The notes beneath the pieces were generated by a model. The model was not told the DNA's origin. It saw nothing but the letters and a program-made list of their open reading frames with translations, and searched no databases. A program made the translations under genes and the position numbers. 64,000 nucleotides of DNA from Tessaracoccus aquimaris (GTDB lineage: Bacteria; Actinomycetota; Actinomycetes; Propionibacteriales; Propionibacteriaceae): assembly GCF_001997345.1 (NCBI RefSeq), contig NZ_CP019606.1, forward strand, positions 3,534,001 through 3,598,000. The letters run 5' to 3'. Below, one piece after another: positions 5,359-43,449 of this stretch (its first letter is position 1; each line of letters starts with the position of its first letter).

Positions 5359-5443
5359 GGCGAGGTCGCATAGTGGACTAGTGCAGCCGCCTTGAAAGCG
5401 GCCGAGGGGCAACTCTCCGTGGGTTCGAATCCCACCCTCGCCG
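5359..5443 (+). tRNA. tRNA-Ser (anticodon TGA)
   Basis: 85-nt class II cloverleaf. The acceptor stem GGCGAGG pairs with CCTCGCC and ends in discriminator G. The anticodon stem GCCGC/GCGGC holds loop CTTGAAA with TGA at 5393-5395, a long variable arm follows, and the T loop is GGTTCGAATCC. CCA is not encoded. It is convergent with the LCP gene at 5454. Confidence 0.95.
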
Positions 5444-5453
5444 CCAGTGGAGG

Positions 5454-9252: not shown

Positions 9253-9343
9253 GGAGGTGTCGCCTAGTACGGTCTATGGCGCCCGCCTGCTAAGCGGGTT
9301 TGGGGCTTCAACCCCATCGCGGGTTCAAATCCCGCCACCTCCG
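9253..9343 (+). tRNA. tRNA-Ser (anticodon GCT)
   Basis: 91-nt class II tRNA. Acceptor GGAGGTG pairs with CACCTCC, with discriminator G. The anticodon stem CCCGC/GCGGG holds loop CTGCTAA with GCT at 9289-9291. A long variable arm (TTGGGGCTTCAACCCCA region) precedes the T arm GCGGGTTCAAATCCCGC. Confidence 0.95.
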
Positions 9344-9353
9344 CCAGTCGTGA

Positions 9354-9828: not shown

Positions 9829-10329
9829 CTACCGCTGAACCACGAGCGCCGGCTGCTCTGCGCTGCCGCGTTCCAGATCGAGCAGGAACGCCTTGCGCTC
9901 GACGCCGCCTGCATAGCCGGTGAGTTTCCCCGATGAGCCGACCACCCGGTGGCACGGGACCACGATGCTGATCGGGTTGCGACCATTGGCAAGGCCGACC
10001 GCGCGGGCGGCGCCCGGCTGTCCGATCGCCTCCGCGAGCCGCCCGTAGCTCCACGTGTCGCCATAGGGGATCGTCCGCAGCGCGGCCCACACCCTCTGCT
10101 GGAAGTCGCTGCCCGTCGGGGCAAGGGGTAGGTCGAAGGACGTCCGCTCGCCCGCGAAGTACTCGACGAGCTGGGCGTCGAGTTGGGGCAACGTGTCGTC
10201 CTCGCGCTCGCCGAAGGTCTCGGACCGAGGCGCGGGCTTGTGGTCGGTCATGTACAGCCCGACGAGGGCGCCGTCGCGTTCGACGACGGTCAGTTCGCCG
10301 ATCGGCGACGAGATGGTGCGATAGCTCAT
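9829..10329 (-). CDS. ogt: Methylated-DNA-[protein]-cysteine S-methyltransferase
   Basis: 166 residues. The active-site box [10 protein letters not shown] (near residue 127) holds the acceptor cysteine of Ogt/MGMT proteins. It is preceded by the DNA-binding [21 protein letters not shown] wing and the arginine-finger segment [12 protein letters not shown]. It removes O6-alkyl groups from guanine by suicide transfer to the cysteine. The ATG at 10329 overlaps the stop of the upstream Ada-AlkA gene as ATGA, so the two alkylation-repair proteins are translationally coupled, the arrangement expected of an adaptive-response unit. Confidence 0.93.
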
Positions 10330-11816
10330 GCTTCCTCCTGGGAGCAGCCCGGGTGACCGGGGATCGAGTTGACGGCATGCGGGGTCATCGCCCACAGGTG
10401 CTGGGTGGCGTACGACCGCCAGGGCCGCCACGCCTGGGAGTGACCCGCGAGATTCTCGAGGCCGAGTTCGGCCGCGGCGCGGATCAGCCCGAGGTCGCTC
10501 GCGGGGAACGCGTCCGGGTCTCCGAGGCCGCGCATGGCGATCATCTCCACGGTCCACGGCCCGACCCCCTTCAGCGCGAGCAGCCCGGAGCGGGCGGCGT
10601 CGCGGTCGGCCCCGACGCCGAGGTCGAGCGAGCCGTCGGCGAGCGCCGTGGCGACCCGTGCGATCGTGTCGCGCCGCGACTGTGGGAAGGCCATCGCCTC
10701 GGGGGGCGCCTTGAGGACCCGCTGCGGGGTGGGGAAAAGGTGTGTCAGGCCGGGCACGGGCGTCTCGACGGGGTCGCCGACGGCCTGCACCAGGCGGGCG
10801 CCGTGCGTGCGCGCCGCCGCGGTCGAGACCTGCTGGCCGAGCAGGATCCGAAACGCCATCTCGTCGCCGTCGACCCCGCGCGGGATGCGCCTTCCCCGAT
10901 GCGCGGCCACGAGCGGCGCGAAGTGGGGATCCTCTGAAAGGAATGCGTCGACGGCGACCGGGTCGGCGTCCAGGTCGAGGAGTCGCCGGATCCGCGCGAC
11001 CGCCGTCGGTAGCTGCGCGAGATCCGTCAGCCCGATCCTGGCGCTGACCCCGGACGACGTGGGCGCGAGGGAGGCGACGCCGTAGCCGACCGGGAGCCGG
11101 AGCGTCCGGTGATAGACGCCGTCGGCGAAGGACTCGACGCCGTCGATCGCGGTGGCGATCAGGTGCCCGAACACGTTGCACGGGCAGAACGGCTGGCGGA
11201 CGGCCAGGTCGAGGTCGACGAACGTCAGCCCTCCCAGGTCGGTGCCGCGTCTCCTCGTGGAACGGTTCCGCAGTTCTCTGGGGGTGGTGTCGTAGACCTC
11301 CAGCATGGTGGCGTTGAAGGACCGCACGCTCGCGAAGCCCGCGGCGAAGGCGATGTCGGCGTGGGACAGTTCAGTCGCCTCAAGCAGGGTCCTTGCCGTC
11401 TGCGCGCGGCGGGCCCGGGCCAGCGCGAGCGGGCCGGCCCCGGCTCCGTCGGCGAGCAGTCGCTGCACCTGCCTCGTCGAGTAGCCGAGGTGCGCCGCCA
11501 GCCCAGGCACCCCCTCGCGGTCGACCACGCCGTCGTCGATGAGGCGCACAGCCCTGGCGAGTGCGTCGCCCCGCACGTCCCAGTCGGGAGAGCCGGGGGT
11601 CGCGCCCGGCAGGCACCGCTTGCACGCCCGGAACCCGGCCTGCTGCGCCGCCGCGGCGGTCGGGAAGAACTGGACGTTGCGGGGCTGCGGCGTGCGCGCC
11701 GGGCAGGAGGGTCGGCAGTAGATGCCGGTCGTCAGGACGCCGGTGTAGAAGCGCCCGTCGAACCTGGCGTCCTTGGCCTGGATGGCCCTCTCGCAGGCGT
11801 CCCGATCGGTGAACAT
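10326..11816 (-). CDS. Fused Ada-type regulator and AlkA-type 3-methyladenine DNA glycosylase
   Basis: 496 residues; ATG at 11816 ([20 protein letters not shown] is the normal N-Ada opening). Residues 1-75 form the Ada zinc domain with Cys34, Cys38, Cys65 and Cys68, where Cys34 is the expected methylphosphotriester acceptor. Residues about 80-190 are an AraC-type HTH ([36 protein letters not shown]). The rest is an AlkA glycosylase with helix-hairpin-helix [18 protein letters not shown] and catalytic aspartate in FPASDLGL. It should sense alkylation damage, activate its own operon and excise alkylated bases. The second methyltransferase domain of E. coli Ada is supplied separately by the coupled ogt gene. 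Confidence 0.92.
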
Positions 11817-11901
11817 GCCCCTAGTCTCCACCAGGAAGCGGCCCATTTCTAGCAGGAATGCGACACGACGGCCCGGCTTCGACATCCGGCCGAACGAACA
11901 A

Positions 11902-11932
11902 CGGCGCCCCGCGGGATGAACGCGGGGCGCCG
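11902..11932 (-). terminator. Terminator at the end of the mannosidase/PHP operon
   Basis: Perfect 12-bp GC-rich stem CGGCGCCCCGCG / CGCGGGGCGCCG with a 7-nt loop. On the minus strand it is followed by TTGTTCGTTCGG. It lies 63 bases past the stop of the PHP hydrolase gene and before the promoter region of the Ada-AlkA gene. Confidence 0.8.
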
Positions 11933-11995: not shown

Positions 11996-13255
11996 TCAGG
12001 CCGACAGGGCCAGGACCGCTCGTTGCGAGTCCTCGAGACGGTAGGGCCCGTCCTCGAGGGGTGCCGCGACGCTCTGGGCGTCGGAGTCGAGCACGAGACG
12101 GCGACCCGATCCGGAGACCAGGATCAGGTCCTTCGCCGCGAGGGCCAGCAGGTCGCCACCCTGTCGGATCAGGATCGGCGCGGTGTCGAGCGAGGGTCGC
12201 GCCTCGTCGGGGCTGACGAAGTGCGCGCCAGCCGTGACGGTGGTGCGACCTGCGCGCATCGCGTCCAGGATCGCCTCGTCGCTGTCCTCCTCGGCCGCAA
12301 CCCAGGTCGTCGGCATGCCGGGCCTGAGCGGCGAGTCCCGCTTGTGGAAGTCGCCGCCGCCGAGCAGGACGACGTCGCGCCGCCAGCGGCGGAACCAGGC
12401 GAGCGCCGATGTGGAGATCGGCTCCTCGTACCAGGTCGAGTGGTACAACTCGACGCCGCCTGGCTCGCGTTGCATCTCGTGCAGCCACGAGCAGTCGCCC
12501 GAGACGGGGTGGTTGATCGACATCAGCCCGCCCCGCTCCGCGACCACGTCGGCCCACTCCTGGGCGGGGAGTCGGAAGTCGACGAACCCGATGTCGCCGA
12601 ACGCGTTGGAGTGCCCCCGTGCGGTGGTCACCTCCTGGCCGGGCACCAGCGTGATGCCGTGACGGTTTCCGACCGGCCCGAGGTGCGCGTGGTGGCTGGT
12701 GGTGTTGTGGTCGGTGACGCACAGGAAGTCCAGGCCGGAGCGCACCCCTTCGTTTGCCAACTCCCAGAGGCTGAGCGCCCCGTCGGAGTGCAGCGTGTGC
12801 GCGTGGGTGTCGCCCGCGTACCACCGCATGCCGGCGGGCGCTGGCAGGTCGCGGTCGCTGCCGCGGGCCTCCCTGCGCACCGGTTCCTCGACGGGCCCGT
12901 GATCGGGCCGGTTGATCGCAGGCATCTCGACGGTGACCGTCACGTCAGCCCCGGCCGCGGGCAGCGTGTGCAGGCCGAGGATGACGTCCCAACGACCGGG
13001 GACGACGTCGCCGGGCAGATAGCCGGGGGTCGCGTCGTCCTCCGCGACCACGAACGTGCGCCTGGCGCCGCCCGACCAACCTCGCCAGGCCTTCGGGCCC
13101 TCGCAGCCGAGGTCGATCCTGGCGTCCGGGCCTCCCTCGACCTCGAGCGTCACCTCGAAGCTGGTCACGCCCTCGGGCAGGTCGAACCCGAACCGTGGGT
13201 AGCGGTCGGCAGCCTGGTCCGCGAGCGTGACGTGGCGCGACTCGGTGTGTCGCAT
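11996..13255 (-). CDS. CehA/McbA-family PHP-domain metallohydrolase
   Basis: 419 residues. The first 130 residues form a beta-rich accessory domain (FEVTLEVEGGPDARIDLGCE), then a PHP-type metal site: YAGDTHAHTLHSDG, FLCVTDHNTTSHH, VPGQEVTTARGHSN, MSINHPVSGD and GGGDFHKRDSP supply the His/Asp/Glu ligands for a polynuclear metal centre. Relatives include CehA/McbA carbaryl hydrolases and phosphoesterases. Here the genetic context argues for a phosphoester or ester bond in an imported glycan. The ATG overlaps the alpha-mannosidase stop (TGATG), making it the last gene of the eight-gene operon. The substrate is unknown. Confidence 0.85.
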   Translation of the reverse strand: MRHTESRHVTLADQAADRYPRFGFDLPEGVTSFEVTLEVEGGPDARIDLGCEGPKAWRGWSGGARRTFVVAEDDATPGYLPGDVVPGRWDVILGLHTLPAAGADVTVTVEMPAINRPDHGPVEEPVRREARGSDRDLPAPAGMRWYAGDTHAHTLHSDGALSLWELANEGVRSGLDFLCVTDHNTTSHHAHLGPVGNRHGITLVPGQEVTTARGHSNAFGDIGFVDFRLPAQEWADVVAERGGLMSINHPVSGDCSWLHEMQREPGGVELYHSTWYEEPISTSALAWFRRWRRDVVLLGGGDFHKRDSPLRPGMPTTWVAAEEDSDEAILDAMRAGRTTVTAGAHFVSPDEARPSLDTAPILIRQGGDLLALAAKDLILVSGSGRRLVLDSDAQSVAAPLEDGPYRLEDSQRAVLALSA

Positions 13256-15909
13256 CAGGACTCCCTCCGTAGCGTGACGATCTGCCCCGCGCCGACCTCG
13301 AGCGTTGCCAGGTCGACCGGACCCGAGACGACCGCGCCCGTCAGGTCGGTGACGACCCAGGTGCCCTCGGCGGCGACGGCCAGCGGCCGGGCGACCGGGG
13401 AGTAGTTGACCAGCCGTGCCTCGACGCCCCCGCGGACCCGGCGCAGCGACTCGAGCGCGACCTGACCGGTCGTCTCGAACGCCACCGCCGGCTCGGTCGG
13501 CTCTCCGCCGCGGCCCGGAACGGTCACCGGATCCAAGCGGAAGACGTCGCTGTGCTCGACCAGGCGATCGGGATCGAGGTCGATCGCGAACGAGCACTCC
13601 ACGTGCCTACCCAGGTATTGCGCACCGGGGACGGGGAACTGCGAGCCTGCAGGCTCGTCGCGCAGCGGGTGCACGTTGACGCTCATCATCCCGACGCTGC
13701 GCAGCACCGTCAGAGCGATGTCGTCGGTGCCCTCACCGTCGACCACCTCGTACTCGACGAGCTTGTCGACGAGGACGCCGACCTCACCCGCGGTGACGAA
13801 CCGGGTCGCTGGGAAGGTCGGCAGCGGGAACTCGCCCCAGCCTCCCTCCGCGGTGCGGCCGCGCACCGTCAGCCCGTACTGGCCGGCCGACGCCGACTCG
13901 GTGACGCCCTGTCGCAGCGTCGGCACCATGACGCGCAGCCGGTGGTCGCCGACCTGGTTGGTGAGCGAGACGGTGACGCGCAGGAACGGCTCGCCCGCGC
14001 GCAGCTCGACGAGCGTGTCGACGACCTGCTCGCGGGTCACCGCGGAGCGGCGCGACCGGTCGGACGCGTCGACCTCCACGGGCAGCGGGTAGGTGCGCCG
14101 GATGACGATCCGTCCGCGCAGCGGCCCTTCCTCCGCGACGGTGATCTCGACCGAAGCGGGCGCGTCGACGGGGCCGTCGACCGGGCCGTAGTTGTACGAG
14201 TCGCCGCGGTCGCCGTCGTCGACGAGTCGGAGCGCGTCGGGGAGCGTGACCCCGGTGCGCAGATCCGTGACGGTGACGGTGCCCGCCTCTGCGACGACGG
14301 CCTCGACGAGGCCGTTGGACAGCCGGCCTGCCGAGACCACGACGGGCGCCTTGGGCGCGACCGCGGAGTCGGGGCCCAGCGCGACGGCGGACATGCCCGC
14401 AGCGGGCCGGGCGACCAGCACCCGGCTGGTCGCCGGAACCCGGGTCACGACGCGGAACGGGTGGTCCTCGTCGGAGGAGGACATCTTGTCGTTGAGCACC
14501 GCCACGAAATCGGCGAGGTCGAAGTCGCCGTCGGTGATGTCGGCCACCACAAACTCCAGGTCGTCGCCCTCCCAGGACCAGGAGCGGATGTGCTTGCCGA
14601 ACAGTTCCTGGCCGTGGATCCGGCGCACCACCTTCGGCAGGTCCCGCGACGCGATGGTCTCGTCGCCGATCACGGTCGGCAGTTCTTCGAGGAGCTGGAC
14701 GGACGGGGACGACGGGGCGCCCTCGACGACCAGTTCGGCCTGCACCTGGCGCGGGAAGCCGCTCTGGTTGAACGCCGCGACCGAGCCGACCGGGGCGTGG
14801 CTGGCCAGCCCCGGGGCGGTGATGTCGATGACGCCGTCGGCGGTCTGGGCCGCGACCCGGAGCCGCGACTCGACCTCGTCAGCGGTGGAGTCGACGCCGC
14901 AGCCCGTCACCGAGTCGTGCGCCGTCGATTCGACGATGAGGCCCCAGCCGCGCTCGAAGAAGGCGGTCCGGGACACCCCGCCGACCCATGCGTCGAGGCG
15001 TTCGGCCGTGGCCATGCCCCGCTCGGCGGCGGCCATCGCGGCCTTGAGGTTGGTGCGGATGGAGAAGATGCCGGGCAGCAGGTTGCCGCGGGCGTGCGAG
15101 CGCAGTTCGCCGCGCACCACCGGAAGCTTGGCGAGGGCCTCGGGGGAGTGGTCCCGCGAGGCGATCACCTCGTCGACGGTGCCGATCCTCAGTTCGACGT
15201 CGCCCCCGTAGCCGCGCAGGATCTGCACCAGGTCGGCCCGTGGCGCCATGTGATCGGTGCCGTACCAGCCTGCGACGGCCTCACCGTCGAACCAGGACGC
15301 GTTCTCGTCGAGGTAGGCGTCGATCAACTCCGGGAGCTTCTCGAGGGGCTCGAACAGCTTCAGCGCGCTGCCGTAGCCGTCCCACAGGTACTCGACCCGC
15401 ACGGCGCTGCCGTCCAGGCCCTCCCACGAGAAGGCGTGCTTGTCGACGGATGCGGGGACACCGCGCCAGAGCGACGCGTCGGCGATGCCGAAGCCGCGCA
15501 GGATCTGCGGGGTCTGGGCCGCGTGGCCGAACATGTCGGGCAGGTAGCCGACGCGCATCTCGCGGCCGAGCCGACGGGCCGAGGCGATCCCGTGTTCGAG
15601 GTTGCGGACGATGGCCTCGCCGTCGCAGCAGAACTCGTCGAGCAGGATCTGGAACGGGCCGAGGGCGAGCTGCCCGCGAGCGACGGCCGCGCGCACCCGG
15701 TCGGCCTCCTCAGGACGGATCTCCAGGTAGTCGTCGATGGCGGCGCTCTGCCCGTCGAGCGTGAACTTGTAGCCGGGTTCACGCTCGAGCAGGGACAGCA
15801 GGCCGTCGAGCATTGCGACGAGGCGGGCCCGGAAGACGTCGTGGGGTTCGTACCATTCACGGTCCCAGTGGGTGTGAGGGACGATCCACATCGTGGTGGG
15901 GGTACTCAC
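13255..15909 (-). CDS. Alpha-mannosidase, glycoside hydrolase family 38
   Basis: 884 residues from a GTG that overlaps the ATPase stop (GTGA). The opening WIVPHTHWDREWYEP is the GH38 zinc-binding signature, and GYLPDMFGHAAQTPQIL carries the catalytic nucleophile aspartate (PDMFGH). LLDEFCCDGEAIVRNLEHG and the C-terminal beta-sandwich match bacterial cytoplasmic GH38 enzymes. No signal peptide is visible, so it should act on oligosaccharides after import, releasing alpha-linked mannose with retention. The upstream importer genes and downstream PHP hydrolase in one overlapping operon indicate that its substrate enters as a small mannoside, possibly a phosphorylated one. Confidence 0.93.
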   Translation of the reverse strand: MSTPTTMWIVPHTHWDREWYEPHDVFRARLVAMLDGLLSLLEREPGYKFTLDGQSAAIDDYLEIRPEEADRVRAAVARGQLALGPFQILLDEFCCDGEAIVRNLEHGIASARRLGREMRVGYLPDMFGHAAQTPQILRGFGIADASLWRGVPASVDKHAFSWEGLDGSAVRVEYLWDGYGSALKLFEPLEKLPELIDAYLDENASWFDGEAVAGWYGTDHMAPRADLVQILRGYGGDVELRIGTVDEVIASRDHSPEALAKLPVVRGELRSHARGNLLPGIFSIRTNLKAAMAAAERGMATAERLDAWVGGVSRTAFFERGWGLIVESTAHDSVTGCGVDSTADEVESRLRVAAQTADGVIDITAPGLASHAPVGSVAAFNQSGFPRQVQAELVVEGAPSSPSVQLLEELPTVIGDETIASRDLPKVVRRIHGQELFGKHIRSWSWEGDDLEFVVADITDGDFDLADFVAVLNDKMSSSDEDHPFRVVTRVPATSRVLVARPAAGMSAVALGPDSAVAPKAPVVVSAGRLSNGLVEAVVAEAGTVTVTDLRTGVTLPDALRLVDDGDRGDSYNYGPVDGPVDAPASVEITVAEEGPLRGRIVIRRTYPLPVEVDASDRSRRSAVTREQVVDTLVELRAGEPFLRVTVSLTNQVGDHRLRVMVPTLRQGVTESASAGQYGLTVRGRTAEGGWGEFPLPTFPATRFVTAGEVGVLVDKLVEYEVVDGEGTDDIALTVLRSVGMMSVNVHPLRDEPAGSQFPVPGAQYLGRHVECSFAIDLDPDRLVEHSDVFRLDPVTVPGRGGEPTEPAVAFETTGQVALESLRRVRGGVEARLVNYSPVARPLAVAAEGTWVVTDLTGAVVSGPVDLATLEVGAGQIVTLRRES

Positions 15910-16994
15910 AGTTCGTCGCCGCCGATTCGCAGGCCGGACTCGGTGTCGAAGACCATCGTCTTGGAGACGGGGATCGAGAACCAGGCACGCTGTCCTGGCT
16001 CGGGCAGTGGCTCCTCATCGACGACTGCCTGCAGGCGGTCGTCTCCCACCCGGGCGGTCAGCAGGGCGGACGCGCCGAGGTTCTCGATCGTGCTGACCTC
16101 GGCCTCGACCGCGCCGTCGACCGGCGTCGGCGACCAGGAGATGTACTCGGGGCGTGCCCCGACGACGACCTTCTGGCCCTCGCGCAGTTGCGGGGCGGTG
16201 TCGGGCTGGACGTCGAGTTGGGTGCCGAGCACCCGGACCCTTCCGTTCTCCACCACACCGTCGAGGAGGTTCATGGGGTGCGACCCGATGAACGAGGCGA
16301 CGAAGGTGTTGGCCGGCGCGTGGAACACCTCGCGGGGCGTTCCGATCTGCTGGATCTTGCCCTCCTTCATGACCGCCATCCGGTCGGCGAGCGCGAGCGC
16401 CTCCGACTGGTCGTGGGTCACGAACACCGAGGTGACGCCCAGTTCGCGCTGCAGTTCCTTCAGGAACGAGCGGGCCTCGAGGCGAAGCCGCGCATCCAGG
16501 TTGGACAGCGGCTCGTCGAGCAGCAGCACCTGGGGGCGCGTTGCGATGGCACGGGCGAGCGCAACGCGCTGCTGCTGACCGCCGGAGAGCTGGCCGGGGC
16601 GGCGCTCGAGCAGGTGCTCGAGCGAGAGTTTGCCCGCGGTGTCCGCCGCGATGGCCTTGCGCTCATCCTTGGCGACCTTGCGGATCCGCAGCGGGTAGGC
16701 GATGTTGTCCGAGACGTCCATGTGTGGGAACAGGGCGTAGTCCTGGAACACCATGGCGACGCCACGCTCGCCCGGTTCGCGGTGGGTCATCTCCTCACCG
16801 CCGATCTGCAGCGTGCCCTCGGTGATGGTCTCGAGGCCGGCGATGGAACGCAGCAGGGTGGTCTTGCCGCAGCCGGAGGGGCCGAGCAGCGCGAAGAACT
16901 CACCCTCCCCGATCTCGATGTCGACACCGTCGACGCCGCGCACCCCGTTGGGGTATTGCTTGACGAGCGCAGTGGTCGTGATGGTCGAGGTCAT
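15906..16994 (-). CDS. CUT1 sugar ABC transporter ATPase (MalK/UgpC/MsiK type)
   Basis: 362 residues. Walker A GPSGCGKTTLLRSIAG near residue 37, ABC signature LSGGQQQRVALARA, Walker B LLLDEPLSNLDARLR, H-loop SVFVTHDQSEALALADR, and a C-terminal regulatory/TOBE region (about 240-362) as in MalK. It energises import through the two permeases upstream. Overlaps both neighbours by four bases (ATGA upstream, GTGA downstream). It is the only CUT1-type ATPase in the window, while a second CUT1 system at 45-48 kb lacks one, so it might serve both, as MsiK does in Streptomyces. That sharing is inference. Confidence 0.93.
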   Translation of the reverse strand: MTSTITTTALVKQYPNGVRGVDGVDIEIGEGEFFALLGPSGCGKTTLLRSIAGLETITEGTLQIGGEEMTHREPGERGVAMVFQDYALFPHMDVSDNIAYPLRIRKVAKDERKAIAADTAGKLSLEHLLERRPGQLSGGQQQRVALARAIATRPQVLLLDEPLSNLDARLRLEARSFLKELQRELGVTSVFVTHDQSEALALADRMAVMKEGKIQQIGTPREVFHAPANTFVASFIGSHPMNLLDGVVENGRVRVLGTQLDVQPDTAPQLREGQKVVVGARPEYISWSPTPVDGAVEAEVSTIENLGASALLTARVGDDRLQAVVDEEPLPEPGQRAWFSIPVSKTMVFDTESGLRIGGDEL

Positions 16995-17839
16995 GACTTG
17001 ATACCTCCGTAGAAGCGGAATCCGAACTTACGGTTGACGAAGAAGTAGATGAGGATGACGGGTAGCGCGAAGATCAGCGAGAACGCGGAGATCAGTCGCA
17101 GGTCGGCTTGGCCGGACTCCGTGTAGAACGTGTACATCATGACCGCGGCAGGCTGCGTGGTCGGGTCGCGAAGCAGCAGGAAGGGCACCAGGAAGTTGCC
17201 CCACACCTGCACGATGGTCCAGATCGCCACGAAGGCGATGCCGGGCCGCGCGACGGGCACCACGACGTGGCTCAGGATCTGGTACGGCTTCGCGCCGTAG
17301 AGCCTTGCCGACTCCTCATAGGACTTCGGGACCGAGTCCATGAAGTCCTTCAGGATGAACACGACGGTCGGGAGCAGGCCGCCCGCCAGCACCAGCATGA
17401 CGCCCGTGTGGGTGTTGATGAGGTTGATGGCGTTCATCAACTGGAACGTCGGCACCATGGCCGCGGTGCCGGTCACGATGGAGCTGAGCAGCAGCATGCC
17501 GTAGAGCAGCCCGTCGCGGCCGGGGATCCGGACGCGGGACAGCGCGTAGCTGGCTATCGTCGCGAGGAGCACCGTGATCAGCATGGTGCCGATCGCGATG
17601 ATCAGCGAGTTGCCGATGGAGCCGAGCGCGTAGGGGTTCTCGGCGAGGCGCTGGAAGTTGCCGAGCGTCCACTCGGGCCACTTGACGGCCATCGTCGGGT
17701 TCGCGTCGAACGGGGCGACCACGAGCCAGGCCATCGGCAGCGCGAAGAAGATGCCGATCACGACAAGCAGGACGATGAAGAGGGTGCGGCCGAGCACCTT
17801 GCGCAGTTGGCGGCCGAAGCTCGGAGGGTTCGTGCTCAC
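16991..17839 (-). CDS. CUT1 sugar ABC transporter permease (MalG-like)
   Basis: 282 residues; GTG at 17839 overlaps the stop of the other permease (GTGA). Six predicted membrane helices, the first LFIVLLVVIGIFFALPMAWL and the last FSLIFALPVILIYFFVN. The cytoplasmic EAA loop, EESARLYGAKPYQILSHVVV, docks the ATPase and marks the MalG/UgpE family. Together with the 17836 permease it forms the membrane channel of a binding-protein-dependent oligosaccharide importer. Substrate is set by the lipoprotein upstream; the neighbouring GH38 enzyme suggests mannosides. Confidence 0.92.
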   Translation of the reverse strand: MSTNPPSFGRQLRKVLGRTLFIVLLVVIGIFFALPMAWLVVAPFDANPTMAVKWPEWTLGNFQRLAENPYALGSIGNSLIIAIGTMLITVLLATIASYALSRVRIPGRDGLLYGMLLLSSIVTGTAAMVPTFQLMNAINLINTHTGVMLVLAGGLLPTVVFILKDFMDSVPKSYEESARLYGAKPYQILSHVVVPVARPGIAFVAIWTIVQVWGNFLVPFLLLRDPTTQPAAVMMYTFYTESGQADLRLISAFSLIFALPVILIYFFVNRKFGFRFYGGIKS

Positions 17840-18756
17840 TTCTTGCTCCTTCCGATGCGCATGTACAGCAGGGCGATGCCCAGGTTGATCAGCAGCATGA
17901 TCATCGACAGGGCGGCGCCGAAGCCGAGCTGGCCACCCGGGATCGCCGTCTTGTAGATGTAGACCGACAGGATCTCGGTCTTGCCATTGGGGCCGCCCGC
18001 CGTGAGCAGGTAGGGCGTGAACGTGTTGAACGTCCACAGGGTGATCATCAGGGTGTTGGTCAGCACGTGGCCGCGGATGTTGGGCAGCACGACGTCACGC
18101 AACTGCTCCCATCCCGAGGCGCCTGCCATCCGGGCGCTCTCCATCTGCGACGGCGGGACCGCCGACAGCGCGGAGGAGAACAGTTGCATCGAGAAGGCGG
18201 TGCCTACCCAGATGTTGAAGATGACGATGATGGTCATCGGGTGTTCGATGAGCCACGCCTTGCCGTCGGTGCCGAGCAGGGCGTTGAGGGTGCCGCCGCG
18301 GCGGTCGAGCAGCGCGATCCAGAGGAACGCGTGCACTGAGCCGGGGATGACCCAGGCGGCGAGGACGACGGACTCCAGCAGCGTGCGGGCCCAACCGACG
18401 ATGCGGCGGGTGGACCAGGCAAGCGTGAAGCCGAGCAGCGTCTGGCCGAGGACGCCGGAGAATCCGACGAAGATCACGGTCAGCCAGAGCGAGTTCCAGA
18501 AGCTCTTGTCGCCGAGGGCCTGGGCGTAGTTGTCGAGGCCGACGAACTCGGTGTTCGCGGCGGCGAGGCCGGTCAACCGGAAGTTGGTCATCCCGAGGTA
18601 GATCGTCCAGAGCGCGGGGAAGAGCAGGAACAAGGCGATGACGAGGAGGGCCGGGGTCACGAAGACGAGCGCGCGCTTCGTGCCCAGGCCGGCCACGTCC
18701 TCCGCCCGACGCCGGGAACGCCTGGTTCCCGACGCCGGTGCGGTGGAGGTGCTCAC
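17836..18756 (-). CDS. CUT1 sugar ABC transporter permease (MalF/UgpA-like)
   Basis: 306 residues from GTG at 18756. A basic N-terminus (TRRSRRRAED) precedes six helices beginning ALVFVTPALLVIALFLLFPA. The EAA-type loop is SQMESARMAGASGWEQLRDV, and TFNTFTPYLLTAGGPNGKTE is typical of MalF-like proteins. Lies six bases after the solute-binding lipoprotein stop and overlaps the next permease. Inner-membrane half of the importer. Confidence 0.92.
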   Translation of the reverse strand: MSTSTAPASGTRRSRRRAEDVAGLGTKRALVFVTPALLVIALFLLFPALWTIYLGMTNFRLTGLAAANTEFVGLDNYAQALGDKSFWNSLWLTVIFVGFSGVLGQTLLGFTLAWSTRRIVGWARTLLESVVLAAWVIPGSVHAFLWIALLDRRGGTLNALLGTDGKAWLIEHPMTIIVIFNIWVGTAFSMQLFSSALSAVPPSQMESARMAGASGWEQLRDVVLPNIRGHVLTNTLMITLWTFNTFTPYLLTAGGPNGKTEILSVYIYKTAIPGGQLGFGAALSMIMLLINLGIALLYMRIGRSKK

Positions 18757-18762
18757 GGGTGA

Positions 18763-20174
18763 TCAGCCCTGAGCGATGTTGTCTTCGCCACCCACGATGC
18801 TCGGGAGCGCGTCGGCGAAGGACTTGGCGGCGTCTTCGGGGGAGGTGCCGGAGACGACGTCGAGGGTCGCCTGCTGCAGCTTCGCGGAGACCTCGGGGTA
18901 CTCGGCAAGGCCTGGACGGTATGCCGTGATCGGGAGGACCTCGGTGTTGACGAAGGTCAGCATCTTGTCGGAGGCGAGCAGCTTGTCGTTGACGTCCTTG
19001 CGGGGCGAGATCGACAGGGTGCCAGCCGCGCGAGCCTCGAAGGCCTCGGGCGAGTTCATGAACGCCAGGAGCTCCCACGCGAGGTCGGGGTTCTTGGAGT
19101 TCGGGTTCAGCACGCGGCCGGTGCCGCCGGACATCGAGACGAAGTCCTGGCCGTTGATGCCGGAGCCGGGCTTCATGGCGGGGATCTTGGCGTAGCCGAC
19201 GACGGTGTCGCGGTCGGCCATCGGCGCGGTGCCGACGCCCTCAGCGGGGTTGATCACGGAGCGCCAGAAGTAGTCGCCCTCGAACAGGATGCCGATCTTG
19301 CCTGCGGCGAACTCGGCGAACGAGGTGTCGCGGCCGGAGGCCTCCTGCTGGAGGATCGGGTCGCCGAGGCCCTCGTCGATGTAGATGGTCTTGTACAGGC
19401 CGAGCACGTCGCGCATGCCCTGCGTGTCGCCGTACCACTTGCCGTCGGCCCACAGCTTCTGGTTGGTGCCCATCAGCATCGGCAGGTAGCCCTGCATGCT
19501 GGTGGCCTCACCCATCGCGGTGCCAGCGTTGAGCTGGATCGGCGTGACGCCGTCGACCTTCTTCAGCGCGCGGCCGGCCTCGAGGATCTCGTCCCAGGAG
19601 GTGGGCTGCCAGTCGGTCGGCAGGCCGGCCTTCTCGAACAGCGTCTTGTTGTAGTAGATGACGCGGCCGTCGGAGCCCTGCGGGACGCCGTAGCGCTCGC
19701 CGTCGAAGGACAGCGCCTGCTGCACGGCGTCGGTCATCTGCTCCCAGCCGTCCCAGCTGTCGGCGTCCTTCGCCACCTGGTTCAGCGGCTTGATGTAGCC
19801 GGCCTGGGCGAACTCGCCCGTCCAGATGCCGTCGATGCCGAGCACGTCGGCGCCCTTCTTGGAGCTGAGGTCCAGGGCGATCTTGGTCTTGTAGTCCTCG
19901 TCGTCGACGCCCTGGGGCTCGAACTTGACGTCGACCTCGACGCCCTTGGCCTTCTGTGCCTCGACGAACTTGGGGATGACGTACGACTCGATCCATTCGG
20001 CCTCAGCCGCGTTCTTGCCGCCAGCGATGGCGTTGACCATGATCGACAGGGTCTTCTTGCCGCCGTCCGCGGCGGGGGACTCGCCCCGGACGATGGCGAA
20101 CAGGCCGTCACGGAGAGCGCGACGGCGCCAATGAGTGCGACGGTCTTGGTCGCCTTGGCGATGATCGACTTCAT
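18763..20174 (-). CDS. Sugar-binding lipoprotein of the CUT1 importer, frameshifted near the N-terminus
   Basis: The signal peptide and lipobox (MKSIIAKATKTVALIGAVAL, then SVTAC) are in one frame and the mature protein (KKTLSIMVNAIAGGKNAAEA onward) in another. The break is in a CCCCC run (20074-20078 as GGGGG on the plus strand). One added C gives 470 residues, a normal length for extracellular solute-binding family 1 proteins. The mature part has the bilobed binding-protein pattern (LFEKAGLPTDWQPTSWDEIL; FAAGKIGILFEGDYFW; LAWELLAFMNSPEAF). RBS GAAAGGA precedes the ATG. It should deliver an oligosaccharide to the permeases immediately downstream. Probably intact in the organism. Confidence 0.88.
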
Positions 20175-20216
20175 CGGATTCCTTTCAGGTGTGTTCCTGG
20201 GCCACTTCCGCCTGGG

Positions 20217-21369
20217 TTAGGCGTGTGTGGCCGCAGAGCCGGTCTCGGCATCGATTCCGGCGGAGGTCGCGCAGGCCCTCCACAAGGCCTGCGCGCTGGC
20301 CAGGTCCTGGCGGGCGGCGCGGATGCTCGATCCGTCCGGTGTCCCGCCGCTGGCCAAGGTGAGGAGGCTTCGGAGCTCACGCTCGAAGGCCTCTTCCTGG
20401 GGCCAGGTCTGCTCGGAGACCTGGCTGATCAACTGGTCGTCGCCCGTGCTGACCCGCAGCACGGTCGGGGCATTGAGGACGTAGGGGGTGGCGAAGCGAA
20501 GCTCGATCGTCCCCTTGTCGTGGTGGACGGTGATCGTCTCGCGGTACTCGGGGTAGTCGGCGATGAAGTGCCAGCCGAGGTTCCAGGCCACCCCGTTCCC
20601 GGTGGTGCCTGCCGCGAAGACCGATCCGGGGAACTCGTCGCCGACCCTGCGGGCGTGGATGACGTCCGCGAGGCCGAGGCCGAGGTGCCGTGTCAGCGCG
20701 ATGTCGTGCACGATCGAGCCGAGCAGCACATTGGTCCAGAGCTTGCGCAGAGTGTCGTCGCCGGTGGGGACGGACTCATCGATCGAGCGCTGCGAGCGGC
20801 CGGTGAGCGCCGCGAGGGTGGCCGCGTCGACGTCGTCGGAGGCGGCCTCGAGGTGCGCGAACTGCAGTTGCGCGCCGTCGGCCGGGTGCAGCACCTCGAC
20901 GCGCACCTCGCGGGGTGTGACGTCTGCCAGCAGTGTCTTGGCCGCGGCGACCGCAGGGTCGTGTTCCTTCATGTAGCCGATCCGCAGCCATTCCTCGGGG
21001 AGCGGCCGATCTCGGCGAGGCCCTCCTCCAGAGTGTCCAGGTCGTGCCCGCTCCAGCCGAGCGGCTTCTCGACGAGCACCTTGACCCCCGCGCGCACCAG
21101 GGCGAGCGCCTCGTCGGTGTGGCCGCCTCCGGTGGCGATGATGGCCGCGTCGACGGCGAGGTCGCCCCTGTCGATGGCCGCGACGAGGTCGTCGAGACTG
21201 GTGAACCGGCCGTCGGCAGGCACGCCGTGCCGCTCGGCGATGGTGTCGAGCCGCGCGCGGGACAGTTCGACGAGGGCCACCAGGTCGACGTCGGCGCGGT
21301 TGCGCTGGATGACGGGAAGGTGCACGGACTGGGAGATGCCCCGAGCCCTACGACGGCGAGGCGGGTCAC
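20217..21369 (-). CDS. Gfo/Idh/MocA-family oxidoreductase, two frameshifts
   Basis: Three frame segments join into one 384-residue protein when a G is restored to GGGG (CCCC at 21340-21343 on the plus strand) and a C to CCCC (GGGG at 20997-21000). The result has a Rossmann start VTRLAVVGLGG, DAAIIATGGGHTDEAL and the EKP box VLVEKPLGWSGHDL. The C-terminal domain includes NGVAWNLGWHFIADYPEYRE. GTG at 21369 is preferred because it overlaps the upstream stop as GTGA; an ATG nine bases earlier is possible. It likely oxidises a sugar or polyol inside the cell, working with the coupled TIM-barrel isomerase. Confidence 0.8.
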
Positions 21370-22274
21370 GCGAACCACCGCCGGATGGTCTCGCGGTTGG
21401 CGATCTGGTCGGCGACTGCGCGGTCCACGTCCGCCTGCTGCATCAGCACCACGTCCTGCTCGACGACCAGCCAGCCGTCGAAGCCGCTGTCGGTGATGTC
21501 GCCGACGATGCCGTCCAGATCGAGGTCGCCCTCGCCGAGCGCCACGAAGACGCGCTTCTCCCAGACATCGCGCACCGGGTCGTCGGAGCCCTTCGCCTGC
21601 TCGAGGACGGTGAGGTTGACGTCCTTGAGGTGCAGGTGGTTGATCCGCTCTGCCCAGCGCCTGAAGTCGGTGGCCGGGTCGCCGCCGCCGAGCAGCAGGT
21701 GGCCGGTGTCGAAGGTGAGGTCCATGGTGGTGTCGCGCAGGAAGGCGTCGATCTCGGCGGGGGTCTCGATGTAGGTCACCGCGTGGTGGTGGAAGGTGGG
21801 CTCGAGGCCGAGGGATCGGACGTGCGCGGCTACGCGCTCCAGGCGGGCGACGAACAGGTCCCAGGCCGCGCCCGAGAGTTGGAGTTCGGGGGCTCCCCCT
21901 GGCCGCGCCTTGCGGGCGGCGTCGCCTGCGTCGGCGATGGTGGGCAGCGGGCCGTGGCCCTGCTGCTGCGCGGCGACCAGCGCGAAGTCGTCGAGGACGG
22001 GCAGCGCCGCCTTGAAGGCAGCGTCGAACTCGGCGTCGGAGCCGGTGAACGGGTAGTCGACCCAGCCGCCAGCCAGGCCGAGGCCGTGGCGGTTCAGGTT
22101 CCCGATCAGCGCCTCGCCGGTGCCGAACAGGCCGTGCGCGCCCAGGTCGACGCCGTCGTAGCCGGCCTCGCTGACGAGCGCGAGCAGTTCGTCCCCGGTG
22201 GGGAGGGCGACCAGGTCAGGCCTGGACAGTCCGAAGACTCCGTACGAGACGGGTGCGTTGGCGATGGTGATCAT
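21366..22274 (-). CDS. Sugar phosphate isomerase/epimerase-like TIM barrel (xylose isomerase/IolE superfamily)
   Basis: 302 residues, ATG at 22274 with GGAGAG upstream; first gene of the operon. The opening ITIANAPVSYGVFG, then EAGYDGVDLGAHGLF, the metal-ligand strands LEPTFHHHAVTYIETPAEI and LTFDTGHLLLGGGD, INHLHLKDVN and GWLVVEQDV, are the AP-endonuclease-2/xylose-isomerase fold with His/Asp/Glu metal ligands. Relatives act as inosose dehydratases, keto-sugar epimerases or 3-keto-glycoside lyases. Coupling to a Gfo/Idh enzyme supports keto-sugar or inosose chemistry. The precise reaction is not determinable. Confidence 0.85.
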   Translation of the reverse strand: MITIANAPVSYGVFGLSRPDLVALPTGDELLALVSEAGYDGVDLGAHGLFGTGEALIGNLNRHGLGLAGGWVDYPFTGSDAEFDAAFKAALPVLDDFALVAAQQQGHGPLPTIADAGDAARKARPGGAPELQLSGAAWDLFVARLERVAAHVRSLGLEPTFHHHAVTYIETPAEIDAFLRDTTMDLTFDTGHLLLGGGDPATDFRRWAERINHLHLKDVNLTVLEQAKGSDDPVRDVWEKRVFVALGEGDLDLDGIVGDITDSGFDGWLVVEQDVVLMQQADVDRAVADQIANRETIRRWFA

Positions 22275-22317
22275 TTCTCTCCGCTGAGTTCGTTGGTGCA
22301 ACGTCGCAACAAACATT

Positions 22318-22376
22318 ATTCTGCGCTAAAGAAAAATTAGGTGTCAAGTCGTTACGAGACTGTGATCAAATCGTTA
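22318..22376 (-). promoter_or_regulatory. Promoter and tandem operator candidate of the mannoside operon
   Basis: AT-rich island in a GC-rich genome. On the minus strand a consensus -35 TTGACA (22347-22342) and a -10-like CAGAAT (22323-22318) are 18 bases apart, leading to the isomerase ATG at 22274. Two direct copies of TAACGAyTTGA (22354-22344 and 22376-22366) are spaced 22 bp start to start, about two helical turns. The proximal copy covers the -35 box. The adjacent ROK regulator is the obvious candidate to bind them. Confidence 0.6.
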
Positions 22377-22395
22377 TCTTTGTAAGAACAAGCGT

Positions 22396-23595
22396 TCAGC
22401 GACGGCTAGGAAGCCGAGGCACGAACCTCGCGTCCAGCACCGCGCAGGCGGCACCGATGGCACCGACCTCGGTGCCCATTGCCGTTGACAGCACCTCGAC
22501 GGGGTGCGGGCCGCGTGCCGAGGGGCGGGCGAGCGCCGCGATCGCAGCGTCCTCGTAGAAGGGCCGGACATGGACCCAGTTGGGGCCGCCGTAGACGACC
22601 GTGTCGGCGTCGAAGACCTCCGCAGTCATGACCACCATCTCGGCGATGCGCCTGCCCGCGTTGCGCAGGATCGCCTCGGCGGGCGTGTTGCCGTCGAGGG
22701 CGAGTCGGCACAGTTCGCGGAACTGTTCCTCGAGTTGGCGAAGCTCCCAGCGCGTCGGGGGAGGCGAGGCGAGGATGCCCTGTTCGTGGGCTTCCTGCAC
22801 GAGGATGAACGGGTCGTTGTCCATGCCGCGCAGTTCCTCGCGGCCGAGCGAGACGAGCATCCGGCCGATCTCGCCCGCGTTGCCGGAGGCGCCGCGCACG
22901 GGTTCGCCGTTGAGCGACAGCCCCAGGCCGGTGCCGGTGCCGAGGTAGACGAACACCACGGTCGAGTCGATCATCGACCCGCCACGCACCCACGCCTCAC
23001 CGGTGACCGCGGCGAAGGTGTCCTTGACGACGGGGACGGTGGTGCCGAGCCTGCGGGTGAGCGCCTCGCCGATCGCGATGCCCGCCCAGCCGGGCAGCCA
23101 GACGGTGTCGGTGATGGACCCCGTGCGGTCGTCGAGGGGACCGGGCACCGCAGCGCAGGCGCCCAGCAGTCTCGTCCGGTCGATGCCGGAAGCGTCGACC
23201 AGTTGGTTGATGAGGTTGGCCGCCTCGTCCAGCGAACTGCTCGGGTCGTTGGGGTCGATGGACTCGCTGGTGCCGTCGAGCACCACCTGGCCGCGTAGGT
23301 CGAGCACGACCGCCGACATGATGGCGGGGTCGATATGCAGGCCGACGGCGTAGTTGGCCGTCGGTTCCAGGTCGACGATGACACGGGGGCGGCCGCGGCC
23401 GACGGACTCGGTGCGCAGTTCGGTCAGGTAACCGAGGTGCCGGAGGTTGCGGACGATGGAGGAGACAGCTGGGATCGACAGGCCGGTCTGTGCGGCAATG
23501 TCGGTCTGGCTCGTCGGGCCGAGCACTCGGAGCGCGTGGATGACGGCGTTCTCGTTGTACTGGCTGACGTGCGAGAGGCTGGCGCCTGGTCGCAT
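22396..23595 (-). CDS. ROK-family transcriptional regulator
   Basis: 399 residues, ATG at 23595 with AGGGAGGA upstream. The N-terminal winged helix (residues about 10-70: GPTSQTDIAAQTGLSIPAV, VSSIVRNLRHLGYLTE) is fused to a ROK sugar-kinase-like domain (YAVGLHIDPAIMSAVVLDLR; VFVYLGTGTGLGLSLNGE). It probably binds a sugar and controls the eight-gene operon that begins 122 bases downstream on the same strand. The usual ROK zinc motif CxCGxxGC is absent, replaced by the segment RGASGNAGEIGRML and following, so effector binding may differ from NagC/Mlc. Confidence 0.88.
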   Translation of the reverse strand: MRPGASLSHVSQYNENAVIHALRVLGPTSQTDIAAQTGLSIPAVSSIVRNLRHLGYLTELRTESVGRGRPRVIVDLEPTANYAVGLHIDPAIMSAVVLDLRGQVVLDGTSESIDPNDPSSSLDEAANLINQLVDASGIDRTRLLGACAAVPGPLDDRTGSITDTVWLPGWAGIAIGEALTRRLGTTVPVVKDTFAAVTGEAWVRGGSMIDSTVVFVYLGTGTGLGLSLNGEPVRGASGNAGEIGRMLVSLGREELRGMDNDPFILVQEAHEQGILASPPPTRWELRQLEEQFRELCRLALDGNTPAEAILRNAGRRIAEMVVMTAEVFDADTVVYGGPNWVHVRPFYEDAAIAALARPSARGPHPVEVLSTAMGTEVGAIGAACAVLDARFVPRLPSRR

Positions 23596-27676: not shown

Positions 27677-28411
27677 GTGACAGCTATCTGGGCCCACCGG
27701 GGCGCCTGCGCCTACGCACCGGAGAACACCCTCCCCGCACTTCAGGTCGCCCTCGAGATGGGCGCGGACGGCATCGAGGTCGACGTGCAGCGCTCGGCCG
27801 ACGGACACCTGGTGCTCATCCACGACGAGACCATCAATCGCACCTCCAACGGCGTCGGCCGCGTCGAGCACCTGACGATGGAGGAGTTGCGTCGCTGCGA
27901 CTTCACCAATGGCTTCGCTGGGCGTCGCAACGTCAAGATCCCGACGCTGCACGAGGCCCTCGAACTGCTCCGCCCGACGGGTGCCACGCTGAACATCGAG
28001 TTGAAGAACAACGTGGTGCTCTACCCGGGCCTGGAGAACGACGTGCTGCGCGTCGTCACGGAGATGGGGATGGCCGAGCGGGTCATCTACTCGTCCTTCA
28101 ACCACTTCTCGCTCGCCAACCTCCGCGGCTCGGTCGGCCCCGAACACCTGGCGCTGCTGCTCAGCGACGGGCTGTATGACCCGTGGAAGTACGCCAACTG
28201 GTTCGGCGCCGGCTGGATCAACCCCGACCACTTCGCACTGCAGCAGCCCAACTATGTGTGGCTGGCGCACGAGGCCGGGGTCAAGATCGCGACCTGGACG
28301 GTCAACAAGGACGAGGAGGCCGTGCACCTCGCGGGCCTCGGCGTCGACGCGCTGATCACGGACTTCCCCGACCGGGTCGGCGAGGCCGTCCGCCACCCCG
28401 GCTACTACTGA
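27677..28411 (+). CDS. Glycerophosphodiester phosphodiesterase family protein
   Basis: 244 residues from GTG with AAGGATGGGGG upstream. The opening IWAHRGACAYAPENTLPA carries the catalytic HRG and PENT motifs, and GIEVDVQRSADGHLVLIHDE supplies the metal-binding Glu/Asp and general-base His. A TIM barrel follows with LNIELKNN and VKIATWTVNKDEEAVHLAGL. It lacks a signal peptide and so is cytoplasmic. The reaction is hydrolysis of glycerophosphodiesters to sn-glycerol 3-phosphate and an alcohol. It stands 25 bases before menB but the two functions are unrelated. Confidence 0.92.
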   Translation: MTAIWAHRGACAYAPENTLPALQVALEMGADGIEVDVQRSADGHLVLIHDETINRTSNGVGRVEHLTMEELRRCDFTNGFAGRRNVKIPTLHEALELLRPTGATLNIELKNNVVLYPGLENDVLRVVTEMGMAERVIYSSFNHFSLANLRGSVGPEHLALLLSDGLYDPWKYANWFGAGWINPDHFALQQPNYVWLAHEAGVKIATWTVNKDEEAVHLAGLGVDALITDFPDRVGEAVRHPGYY

Positions 28412-29867: not shown

Positions 29868-30872
29868 CTACTCCTTCGTCGAGAACGCCGCGTCGAAGGC
29901 CGCCTCCGGCGGGTCGAACGCGAAGCTTCTGACGAAGCCCAACGCCTCGGGGGCGCCGACGAGGCGATCCATGCCTGCGTCCTCCCACTCGACCGACAGC
30001 GGACCGTCGTAGCCGATCGCGTTGAGCATCCGGAACGCGTCCTCCCACGGCACGTCGCCGTGGCCGGTCGAGATGAAGTCCCAGCCGCGGCGCGGGTCGG
30101 CCCACGCCAGGTGCGACGATAGTCGGCCGTTGCGGCCGTTGTTCATCCGCTTCTTCGTGTCCTTGCAGTGCACGTGGTAGATCTTGTCCTTGAAGTCCCA
30201 CAGGAAGCCGACCGGATCGAGGTCCTGCCACACCATGTGGCTCGGGTCCCAGTTCAGGCCGAACGCCTCACGGTTGCCGATCGCCTCGAGCGCCCGGACG
30301 GTGGTCCAGTAGTCGTAGGCGATCTCGGACGGGTGCACCTCGTGCGCGAACCGGACGCCGACCTCGTCGAAGACGTCGAGGATCGGGTTCCAACGGTCCG
30401 CGAAGTCCTGGTAGCCCGCGTCAACCAGTTCCTGCGATGCTGGCGGGAACATCGCGACGTACTTCCAGATCGACGACCCCGTGAAGCCCGTCACGGTCTT
30501 CGCGCCAAGCTTCGCGGCGAGCCGCGCGGTGTGCTTCATCTCCTCGGCGGCGCGCTGCCGCACGCCCTCGGGATCACCGTCGCCCCAGACGACGTCGGGA
30601 AGCATGTCGCGGTGCCGCTGATCGATCGGATCGTCGCAGACCGCCTGGCCCTTGAGGTGGTTCGAGATCGTGAACACCTGCAGTCCGTTGCGTTCTAGCA
30701 CCTCCTTCTTGCCCGCGATGTAGTCGTCGTCCTCCCAGCGCCACGGGTCGAGGTGGTCGCCCCAGCACGCGATCTCGAGACCGTCGTAACCCCAGTCGCC
30801 GGCGAGCTTGGCCACCTCCTCGAACGGGAGATCAGCCCACTGGCCGGTGAACAAGGTGATGGGTCGAGGCAT
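29868..30872 (-). CDS. Sugar phosphate isomerase/epimerase-like TIM barrel
   Basis: 334 residues. Xylose-isomerase-like fold: [94 protein letters not shown] and [13 protein letters not shown] provide the Glu/Asp/His metal ligands. This subgroup is regularly found beside Gfo/Idh dehydrogenases and CUT2 importers, and some relatives act on 3-keto-glycosides or inososes. Here it is the last gene of the operon starting at 35821, 33 bases after the Gfo/Idh stop. The exact substrate is not known. Confidence 0.87.
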
Positions 30873-30905
30873 CTTTGGCTCCTTCTGTTGCTTGGATTTG
30901 GGGGA

Positions 30906-32069: not shown

Positions 32070-32121
32070 GTCTGGGTCTTCTCCTGGAGTTGTGGTTCAG
32101 ATGGTGGGGTTCGGGTGGTGT

Positions 32122-32152
32122 GCCGGGCCGACCTTGGTGAGGTCGGCCCGGC
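32122..32152 (-). promoter_or_regulatory. Strong intra-operon hairpin after the binding-protein gene
   Basis: Perfect 13-bp stem GCCGGGCCGACCT / AGGTCGGCCCGGC with a 5-nt loop, 12 bases past the solute-binding protein stop and before the Gfo/Idh gene. No T-tract follows. In transporter operons such hairpins often protect the binding-protein mRNA and lower expression of downstream genes. Confidence 0.6.
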
Positions 32153-32163
32153 GGGTCGATGGA

Positions 32164-33233: not shown

Positions 33234-33281
33234 CGATTCTCCTTTGAACGGGTCCGTCGGGTTGGTCGCCTGGCCGGGCGG

Positions 33282-43354: not shown

Positions 43355-43439
43355 GGTGATGTGACTGAGCGGCCGAAAGTGCTCGCCTCGAAAGCGAGAG
43401 TAGGGAAACCTACCGGGGGTTCAAATCCCTCCATCACCG
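43355..43439 (+). tRNA. tRNA-Ser (anticodon CGA)
   Basis: 85-nt class II tRNA. Acceptor GGTGATG/CATCACC with discriminator G, anticodon stem CTCGC/GCGAG and loop CTCGAAA with CGA at 43389-43391, long variable arm, T arm GGGGTTCAAATCCCT. Confidence 0.95.
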
Positions 43440-43449
43440 CCGCGAGATG

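Follow-up and report, generated by a model that had tools for sequence, protein, structure and literature searches.

Which compound would call for an alpha-mannosidase, a PHP-type metallohydrolase, an inositol-type isomerase and a dedicated importer at one locus? The question is raised by an eight-gene operon of Tessaracoccus aquimaris (GCF_001997345.1, a single contig of 3.93 Mb, NZ_CP019606.1), situated in a stretch of 64,000 nucleotides (contig positions 3,534,001 to 3,598,000), hereafter the window, whose numbering is used below. The operon and the ROK-family regulator gene upstream of it occupy 11996–23595 on the minus strand, and all nine genes that a preliminary description of the sequence had listed are present there in the families it claimed. 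The operon is best explained, with a probability of about 0.58, by the import and cytosolic breakdown of an alpha-mannosylated inositol compound, for which a glycerophospho-inositol mannoside is the best candidate. The inositol and mannosyl parts of this answer come from tool results, and we infer which compound it is, its phosphate, the sequence of reactions, the part played by the Gfo/Idh dehydrogenase and control by the ROK regulator.

A genome collection was scanned with an alignment of the PHP protein, which gave 413 confirmed relatives, and the best 80 loci were used for the locus counts. (With E up to 1e-3, 3,520 of 8,000 candidates scored as PHP relatives, not all of which belong to one subfamily.) The ABC importer set is found at 59 of the 80 loci, a GH38 mannosidase at 51, counting a distant and different GH38 at locus L094 (63 bits), and the isomerase together with Gfo/Idh at 37. 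Because 49 loci carry both the ABC set and GH38, and 34 of the 80 have the isomerase and Gfo/Idh as well, the association is not due to chance. Gene order and strand differ from genus to genus, and the association is therefore more than inherited synteny. Across actinobacteria the ABC set and PHP recur together, often with GH38 and the isomerase-Gfo/Idh pair, whose co-occurrence with PHP the preliminary description had proposed to look for. Within the genus, the PHP protein of Tessaracoccus sp. HDW20 is 79% identical over 60% of the query.

The involvement of inositol, which had been a guess, is well supported by the neighboring genes, by co-occurrence and by the isomerase. Within about 10 kb, at least two genes of inositol catabolism (iol; IolB, IolC, IolD, aldolase or IolA) accompany 19 of the 80 PHP loci, namely seven in Microbacterium, four each in Agromyces and Nonomuraea, two in Streptomyces, and one each in Actinotalea and a metagenome-assembled genome of Actinomycetales; across these six organism groups the linkage takes at least four arrangements. 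At L041 the NCBIfam models for IolC (373 bits, cut-off 300), IolA (659, 448.5) and IolD (832, 715) are exceeded, as is that for IolB at L057 (263, 205); the aldolase has no NCBIfam family of its own. We also drew on a sample of 296 genomes of the class, in which the PHP and GH38 subfamilies were called at E up to 1e-60. PHP was present in 35 of these genomes (14 genera) and IolD in 121, such that 33 of the 35 PHP carriers had IolD compared to 88 of the 261 non-carriers (Fisher p 2e-12, with kinship uncorrected). The two genes lay no more than 40 kb apart in 19 of the 33 genomes with both, belonging to 7 genera, and no more than 20 kb apart in 11, from 6 genera. IolD is likewise encoded by 37 of 42 genomes picked from the 80 loci, 35 of the 37 whose locus has the ABC set and two of the five whose locus lacks it. 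Where PHP occurs without this GH38, IolD is still present in 8 of 10 class genomes.

The isomerase (21366..22274, minus strand) is a xylose-isomerase-like TIM-barrel protein. Its family profile matched the solved IolE structures 3cny and 9zmu at 133.8 and 131.2 bits, whereas the next structure scored 41 bits, and D189, H215 and E272 are invariant among 24 sequences, with E158 nearly so; we take these four residues to be metal ligands. To the IolE model TIGR04379 the operon protein scored 139 bits, below the cut-off of 290. However, the IolE of the genome's own iol cluster also fell below it, at 161 bits, and the cut-off was reached in none of 36 genomes of the genus; this cut-off therefore does not separate the two, and the name IolE-like is used here. 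Of 12 genomes tested, 8 have no IolE-like match above 100 bits besides the operon isomerase, and IolD was present in seven of those eight.

The alpha-mannosyl bond proposed in the preliminary description is borne out by the GH38 protein (13255..15909, minus strand) and by its substitute in other genomes. The Pfam N-terminal domain was matched at 102.7 bits (cut-off 25) and the middle domain fell short, at 25.1 of 31.1 bits; no signal peptide was seen by eye. Residues D125 (in PDMFG) and D219 (in GTDH) align with the nucleophile and the acid/base residue of SpGH38, whose roles are given in PMC2815779. In the class sample this GH38 subfamily was found in 28 genomes, 25 of the 35 PHP carriers compared to 3 of the 261 others, and it was placed within 10 kb of PHP in 23 of the 25 genomes having both. 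Two small genomes of 47% GC lack this GH38, and a mannosylglycerate-hydrolase-like GH63 protein (PF22422, 259 and 263 bits) is encoded in their PHP clusters (L164:16402-17733 and L165:12603-13886), by eye behind a LacI-like regulator gene. One of the two clusters has iolD, iolB, iolA and an IolE-like gene next door in divergent orientation. The nearest relatives of the GH63 protein are Thermus TTHA0978 (2z07, for the L164 copy), which we take to be a mannosylglycerate hydrolase, in agreement with the Pfam domain name, and glucosylglycerate hydrolase. Since GH38 and GH63 are unrelated, have related known substrates and occur in the same setting, an alpha-mannosyl or alpha-glucosyl bond is indicated.

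The second hydrolase (11996..13255, minus strand; 419 residues) consists of a β-sandwich N-terminal domain (residues 1–112) and a PHP domain of the CehA/McbA type (NF038032, 127 bits, cut-off 80). Its residues H151, H153, H183, E208, H215, H249, D302 and H304 are invariant in 32 sequences, presumably as metal ligands, and the motifs align with those of 3e38. The preliminary description had assigned to this enzyme a phosphoester (or ester) bond. Predicted PHP phosphoesterases are the proteins that the PHP domain most resembles in fold, but the members that gave CehA/McbA its name are carbamate hydrolases, and cleavage of a phosphoester is no more than plausible. At one locus, L069, a fused GDPD-inositol monophosphatase (1129-2679) adjoins an ABC ATPase gene within 3 kb of the operon; a close relative of it (50%, 436 bits) lies in the same place at L050, near 1238-2755, the domains having been scanned in L069. 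Within the window a GDPD-like gene (27677-28411, plus strand; 145 bits, cut-off 264) precedes menB (577 bits, cut-off 378), apart from the operon.

The importer comprises a solute-binding lipoprotein (SBP_bac_1; 18763..20174), two permeases with BPD_transp_1 family matches (17836..18756 and 16991..17839) and a MalK/UgpC-type ATPase (15906..16994), all on the minus strand. The ATPase scored 408 bits to the UgpC model NF008653, below its cut-off of 432. By eye, the lipoprotein has a signal peptide with a lipobox-like end. In a 35-sequence alignment its identity to the rest, some of them from loci without GH38, is 57–90%, and this similarity suggests one ligand common to the family.

Several observations weigh against the inositol mannoside reading. 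The strongest fact against a plain iol interpretation is that neither IolD nor IolB is encoded in Actinomyces provencensis and A. dentalis, both of which have the complete operon, isomerase and Gfo/Idh included. Two PHP carriers of the class sample also lack IolD, G298 together with IolB and G303 with IolB present. In the genus, 32 of 36 genomes have IolD, and co-occurrence within the genus is therefore uninformative. Elsewhere in the T. aquimaris genome, at about 3,044,700-3,061,000, lies an iol cluster (IolA, E, D, B, aldolase and C), whose own IolE makes the operon isomerase a second copy that is not needed as IolE there. The Gfo/Idh proteins of three relatives with open genes reached just 38, 51 and 54 bits to the IolG model TIGR04380 (cut-off 355). 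The earlier proposal that the IolE-like enzyme and Gfo/Idh handle the inositol or keto-sugar part is supported, as regards inositol, for the isomerase, and the case for Gfo/Idh acting on inositol is weak. At ten of the 80 loci the ABC set stands without any GH38 in reach, and at least one of these ends at a contig edge. At 12 loci an MFS_2 carrier gene stands beside PHP; 11 of these have neither the ABC set nor GH38 nor the isomerase, and no iol gene is in reach at any of the 12, some of which are short. Lastly, relatives of the two-domain GDPD-monophosphatase were found in 6 of the 296 class genomes, of which two are PHP carriers and five have IolD, and GDPD-like genes at 3 of 100 loci searched with two query sequences. 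With these frequencies, a glycerophosphodiesterase is not supported as a regular partner of the operon.

The loci with the sugar symporter-type MFS_2 gene are L059, L060, L062, L063, L068, L070, L071, L079, L081, L084, L087 and L092, as judged by Pfam in L060 and L092 and by tblastn likeness in the other ten; L060 alone has the ABC set. They possibly reflect a different substrate or a swap of transporter.

Could the same genes be read without inositol or without phosphate? If the system took up mannosylglycerate-type solutes, GH38 or GH63 would cleave an alpha-mannosyl (or glucosyl) glycerate and the iol genes would be neighbors for other reasons. The mannosylglycerate hydrolase MngB is the sole NCBIfam match of the GH38 protein, and the GH63 substitute is nearest to TTHA0978 and glucosylglycerate hydrolase; we nevertheless regard this explanation as unlikely, as the scores are far below the cut-offs (324 of 1138 bits for GH38, 161 and 142 of 550 for GH63) and the IolE-like isomerase, the PHP enzyme and the 19 iol-linked loci are left without a role. 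Little credence is also given to oxidative cleavage of a glycoside, in which Gfo/Idh would form a 3-keto glycoside and the isomerase-like protein would eliminate or hydrate it, comparable to keto-glycoside and levoglucosan pathways, with inositol uninvolved. The IolE structures are matched about 90 bits better than the 2-hydroxy-3-keto-glucal hydratase 8ro4, the third-best solved match of the isomerase at 41 bits, and the operon isomerase is the only strong IolE-like match in the 8 of 12 genomes described above, seven of them with IolD. What speaks for oxidative cleavage, apart from 8ro4, is that Gfo/Idh is not IolG-like and that the two Actinomyces species keep the isomerase and Gfo/Idh without IolD and IolB.

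The nature of the second bond is a separate matter. If the substrate were a mannosyl-inositol carrying a carboxyl ester, or some other ester, the PHP protein would be an esterase like carbaryl hydrolase and not a phosphoesterase; its NCBIfam domain is CehA/McbA, with carbamate hydrolases as name-givers. We hold this to be improbable, since the PHP fold is nearest to predicted phosphoesterases and a PHP-domain phosphodiesterase is described in PMC5460133, points that are not decisive. Uptake of a phosphomannan or N-glycan fragment, from which GH38 would trim mannose and PHP remove phosphate, the isomerase pair being incidental, has in its favor that the closest solved GH38 is SpGH38 (2wyh), an alpha-1,3-mannosidase active on N-glycans according to PMC2815779. 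It is very improbable: the association of PHP with IolD persists without this GH38, in the 8 of 10 class genomes given above, and among 30 scanned neighbors the only other mannosidase is the different GH38 at L094.

With the inositol mannoside reading preferred, the following order of events can be proposed. Under control of the ROK regulator, the operon would serve the catabolism of an alpha-mannosylated inositol compound, small and soluble, which the lipoprotein and the ABC transporter would bring in intact. In the cytosol, GH38 would strip the alpha-mannose and the PHP enzyme would hydrolyze a second bond, for which a phosphodiester or phosphomonoester on inositol is the most likely choice. 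The freed inositol would then be passed to the iol pathway, where the IolE-like isomerase would act as a dehydratase and Gfo/Idh probably as a dehydrogenase. Phosphatidylinositol mannosides are envelope lipids of actinobacteria, and for this reason their deacylated head, glycerophospho-myo-inositol mannoside, is the best single candidate for the substrate; the mannosyl-inositol-phosphate heads of fungi fit as well. The presence of these lipids in the mycobacterial envelope is documented in PMC10634837. Taken as a whole, the earlier idea of a mannosyl-inositol-phosphate substrate keeps its inositol and mannosyl parts; the phosphate is plausible only, and action of Gfo/Idh on inositol is its weak point.

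Regulation was assessed from the upstream region. The ROK gene (22396..23595, minus strand; PF00480, 85 bits, with a winged-helix N-terminus) also precedes the isomerase gene in G016, G008, G032 and several Actinomyces loci. Between it and the isomerase gene a promoter-like site, TTGACA-18-CAGAAT, is found at 22347-22318, one such site in the region compared to 0.4 expected from shuffles. This site is overlapped by a box of imperfect palindromic sequence (about 22338-22315), and a second imperfect box lies at about 22378-22362, all on the minus strand. When the upstream region was aligned with those of seven relatives, the first box was scored as a palindrome by script in the window, in L034 and in L060, the L060 box being perfect with 10-base arms, and the remaining regions resemble it by eye. 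These boxes are possible ROK operators, and ROK control of the operon is what we infer. Downstream of the PHP gene the terminator-like hairpin at 11904..11923 (minus strand) is weak, with 3 in the region and 3.3 expected by chance.

The junctions match the tight coupling claimed in the preliminary description at five of seven positions: four-base overlaps join isomerase and Gfo/Idh, permease 1 and permease 2, permease 2 and ATPase, and ATPase and GH38, and a one-base overlap joins GH38 and PHP, whereas about 42 and 6 bases separate the lipoprotein gene from its two neighbors. Frame breaks in two of the genes had been overlooked in that description. The Gfo/Idh gene (20217..21369, minus strand) shifts frame near 21340 and again near 21000 and lacks a single open frame, and the signal region and mature part of the lipoprotein are in different frames, with the break near 20085. 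Each of the three breaks falls at a stretch of four or five G or C, the counterparts of the broken genes are open in the relative G016 (locus L114), and rpoB of the source genome (G000:C1:1944397-1947689), the one housekeeping gene checked for frame integrity, is likewise frame-split, with the final portion (model positions 1117-1238) in another frame. Because of these three observations, assembly indels or sequencing error are the likely cause. A decayed pseudogene operon is disfavored on the same grounds; recent decay is possible.

Elsewhere in the window, an Ada-type N-terminus fused to an AlkA-like glycosylase is followed by a methylated-DNA methyltransferase-like gene (about 9829-11860, minus strand, by eye), and the same two genes come after PHP in G016 and G020. 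A second sugar cluster (29868-35821, minus strand) holds an isomerase (53 bits to IolE), a ribose/arabinose-type ABC set and a Gfo/Idh nearest to levoglucosan dehydrogenase (373 bits, cut-off 650); its binding protein is a 200-residue frame (32631-33233), perhaps another frame break. Three tRNA-Ser genes with the anticodons tga, gct and cga lie within 38 kb (5359-5446, 9253-9346 and 43355-43441).

A bolder version, which we put forward tentatively and consider doubtful, is that of a dedicated and widely conserved actinobacterial system that imports glycerophospho-inositol mannosides and supplies inositol catabolism through their breakdown by GH38 and a new PHP phosphodiesterase. It would scavenge the envelope lipids of neighbors or of the cell itself, and would extend to small genomes of about 47% GC in which GH63 replaces GH38. 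If the inositol mannoside reading is right, it would give a function to a CehA/McbA PHP subfamily and a GH38 subfamily that are both annotated only generically, and would name a bacterial route for recycling the inositol-mannoside head groups of actinobacterial envelope lipids. Titles and abstract beginnings of the open-licence literature yielded no operon that combines GH38, PHP and inositol genes, an absence that is weak evidence, no description of genes for inositol-mannoside head group breakdown, and no role of CehA/McbA proteins in sugar operons.

Each part of the operon is of a known kind, and the combination is new. The E. coli mng system for mannosylglycerate imports through the phosphotransferase, whereas an ABC importer, the PHP enzyme and inositol genes are found here and the operon GH38 is far from MngB in score (324 bits, cut-off 1138). 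The two are alike in having a GH38 enzyme for a small imported mannoside, from which MngB frees mannose, as described in PMC2815779. With the Ugp importer for glycerol-3-phosphate and glycerophosphodiesters the operon shares the ABC type and the UgpC-like ATPase, but its lipoprotein is weakly UgpB-like (26 bits, cut-off 411) and no GDPD gene lies within this operon. The CehA/McbA carbamate hydrolases, compared via the family model, are related by an NCBIfam domain score above the cut-off, and the operon protein differs in having 419 residues with a β-sandwich N-terminus. Sb-PDE, likened by description, is a PHP-domain protein shown to cut phosphodiesters; unlike the proposed enzyme it is described in PMC5460133 with a signal peptide and as acting on haloalkyl phosphates. 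Closest in setting are the iol operons, which share the IolE-like protein and which, at the 19 of 80 loci, place at least two of IolB, IolC, IolD, IolA and aldolase beside the operon. To these the operon adds a front end for glycoside and ester bonds, an ABC importer of its own and a Gfo/Idh that is divergent, and in T. aquimaris the iol cluster is located elsewhere in the genome.

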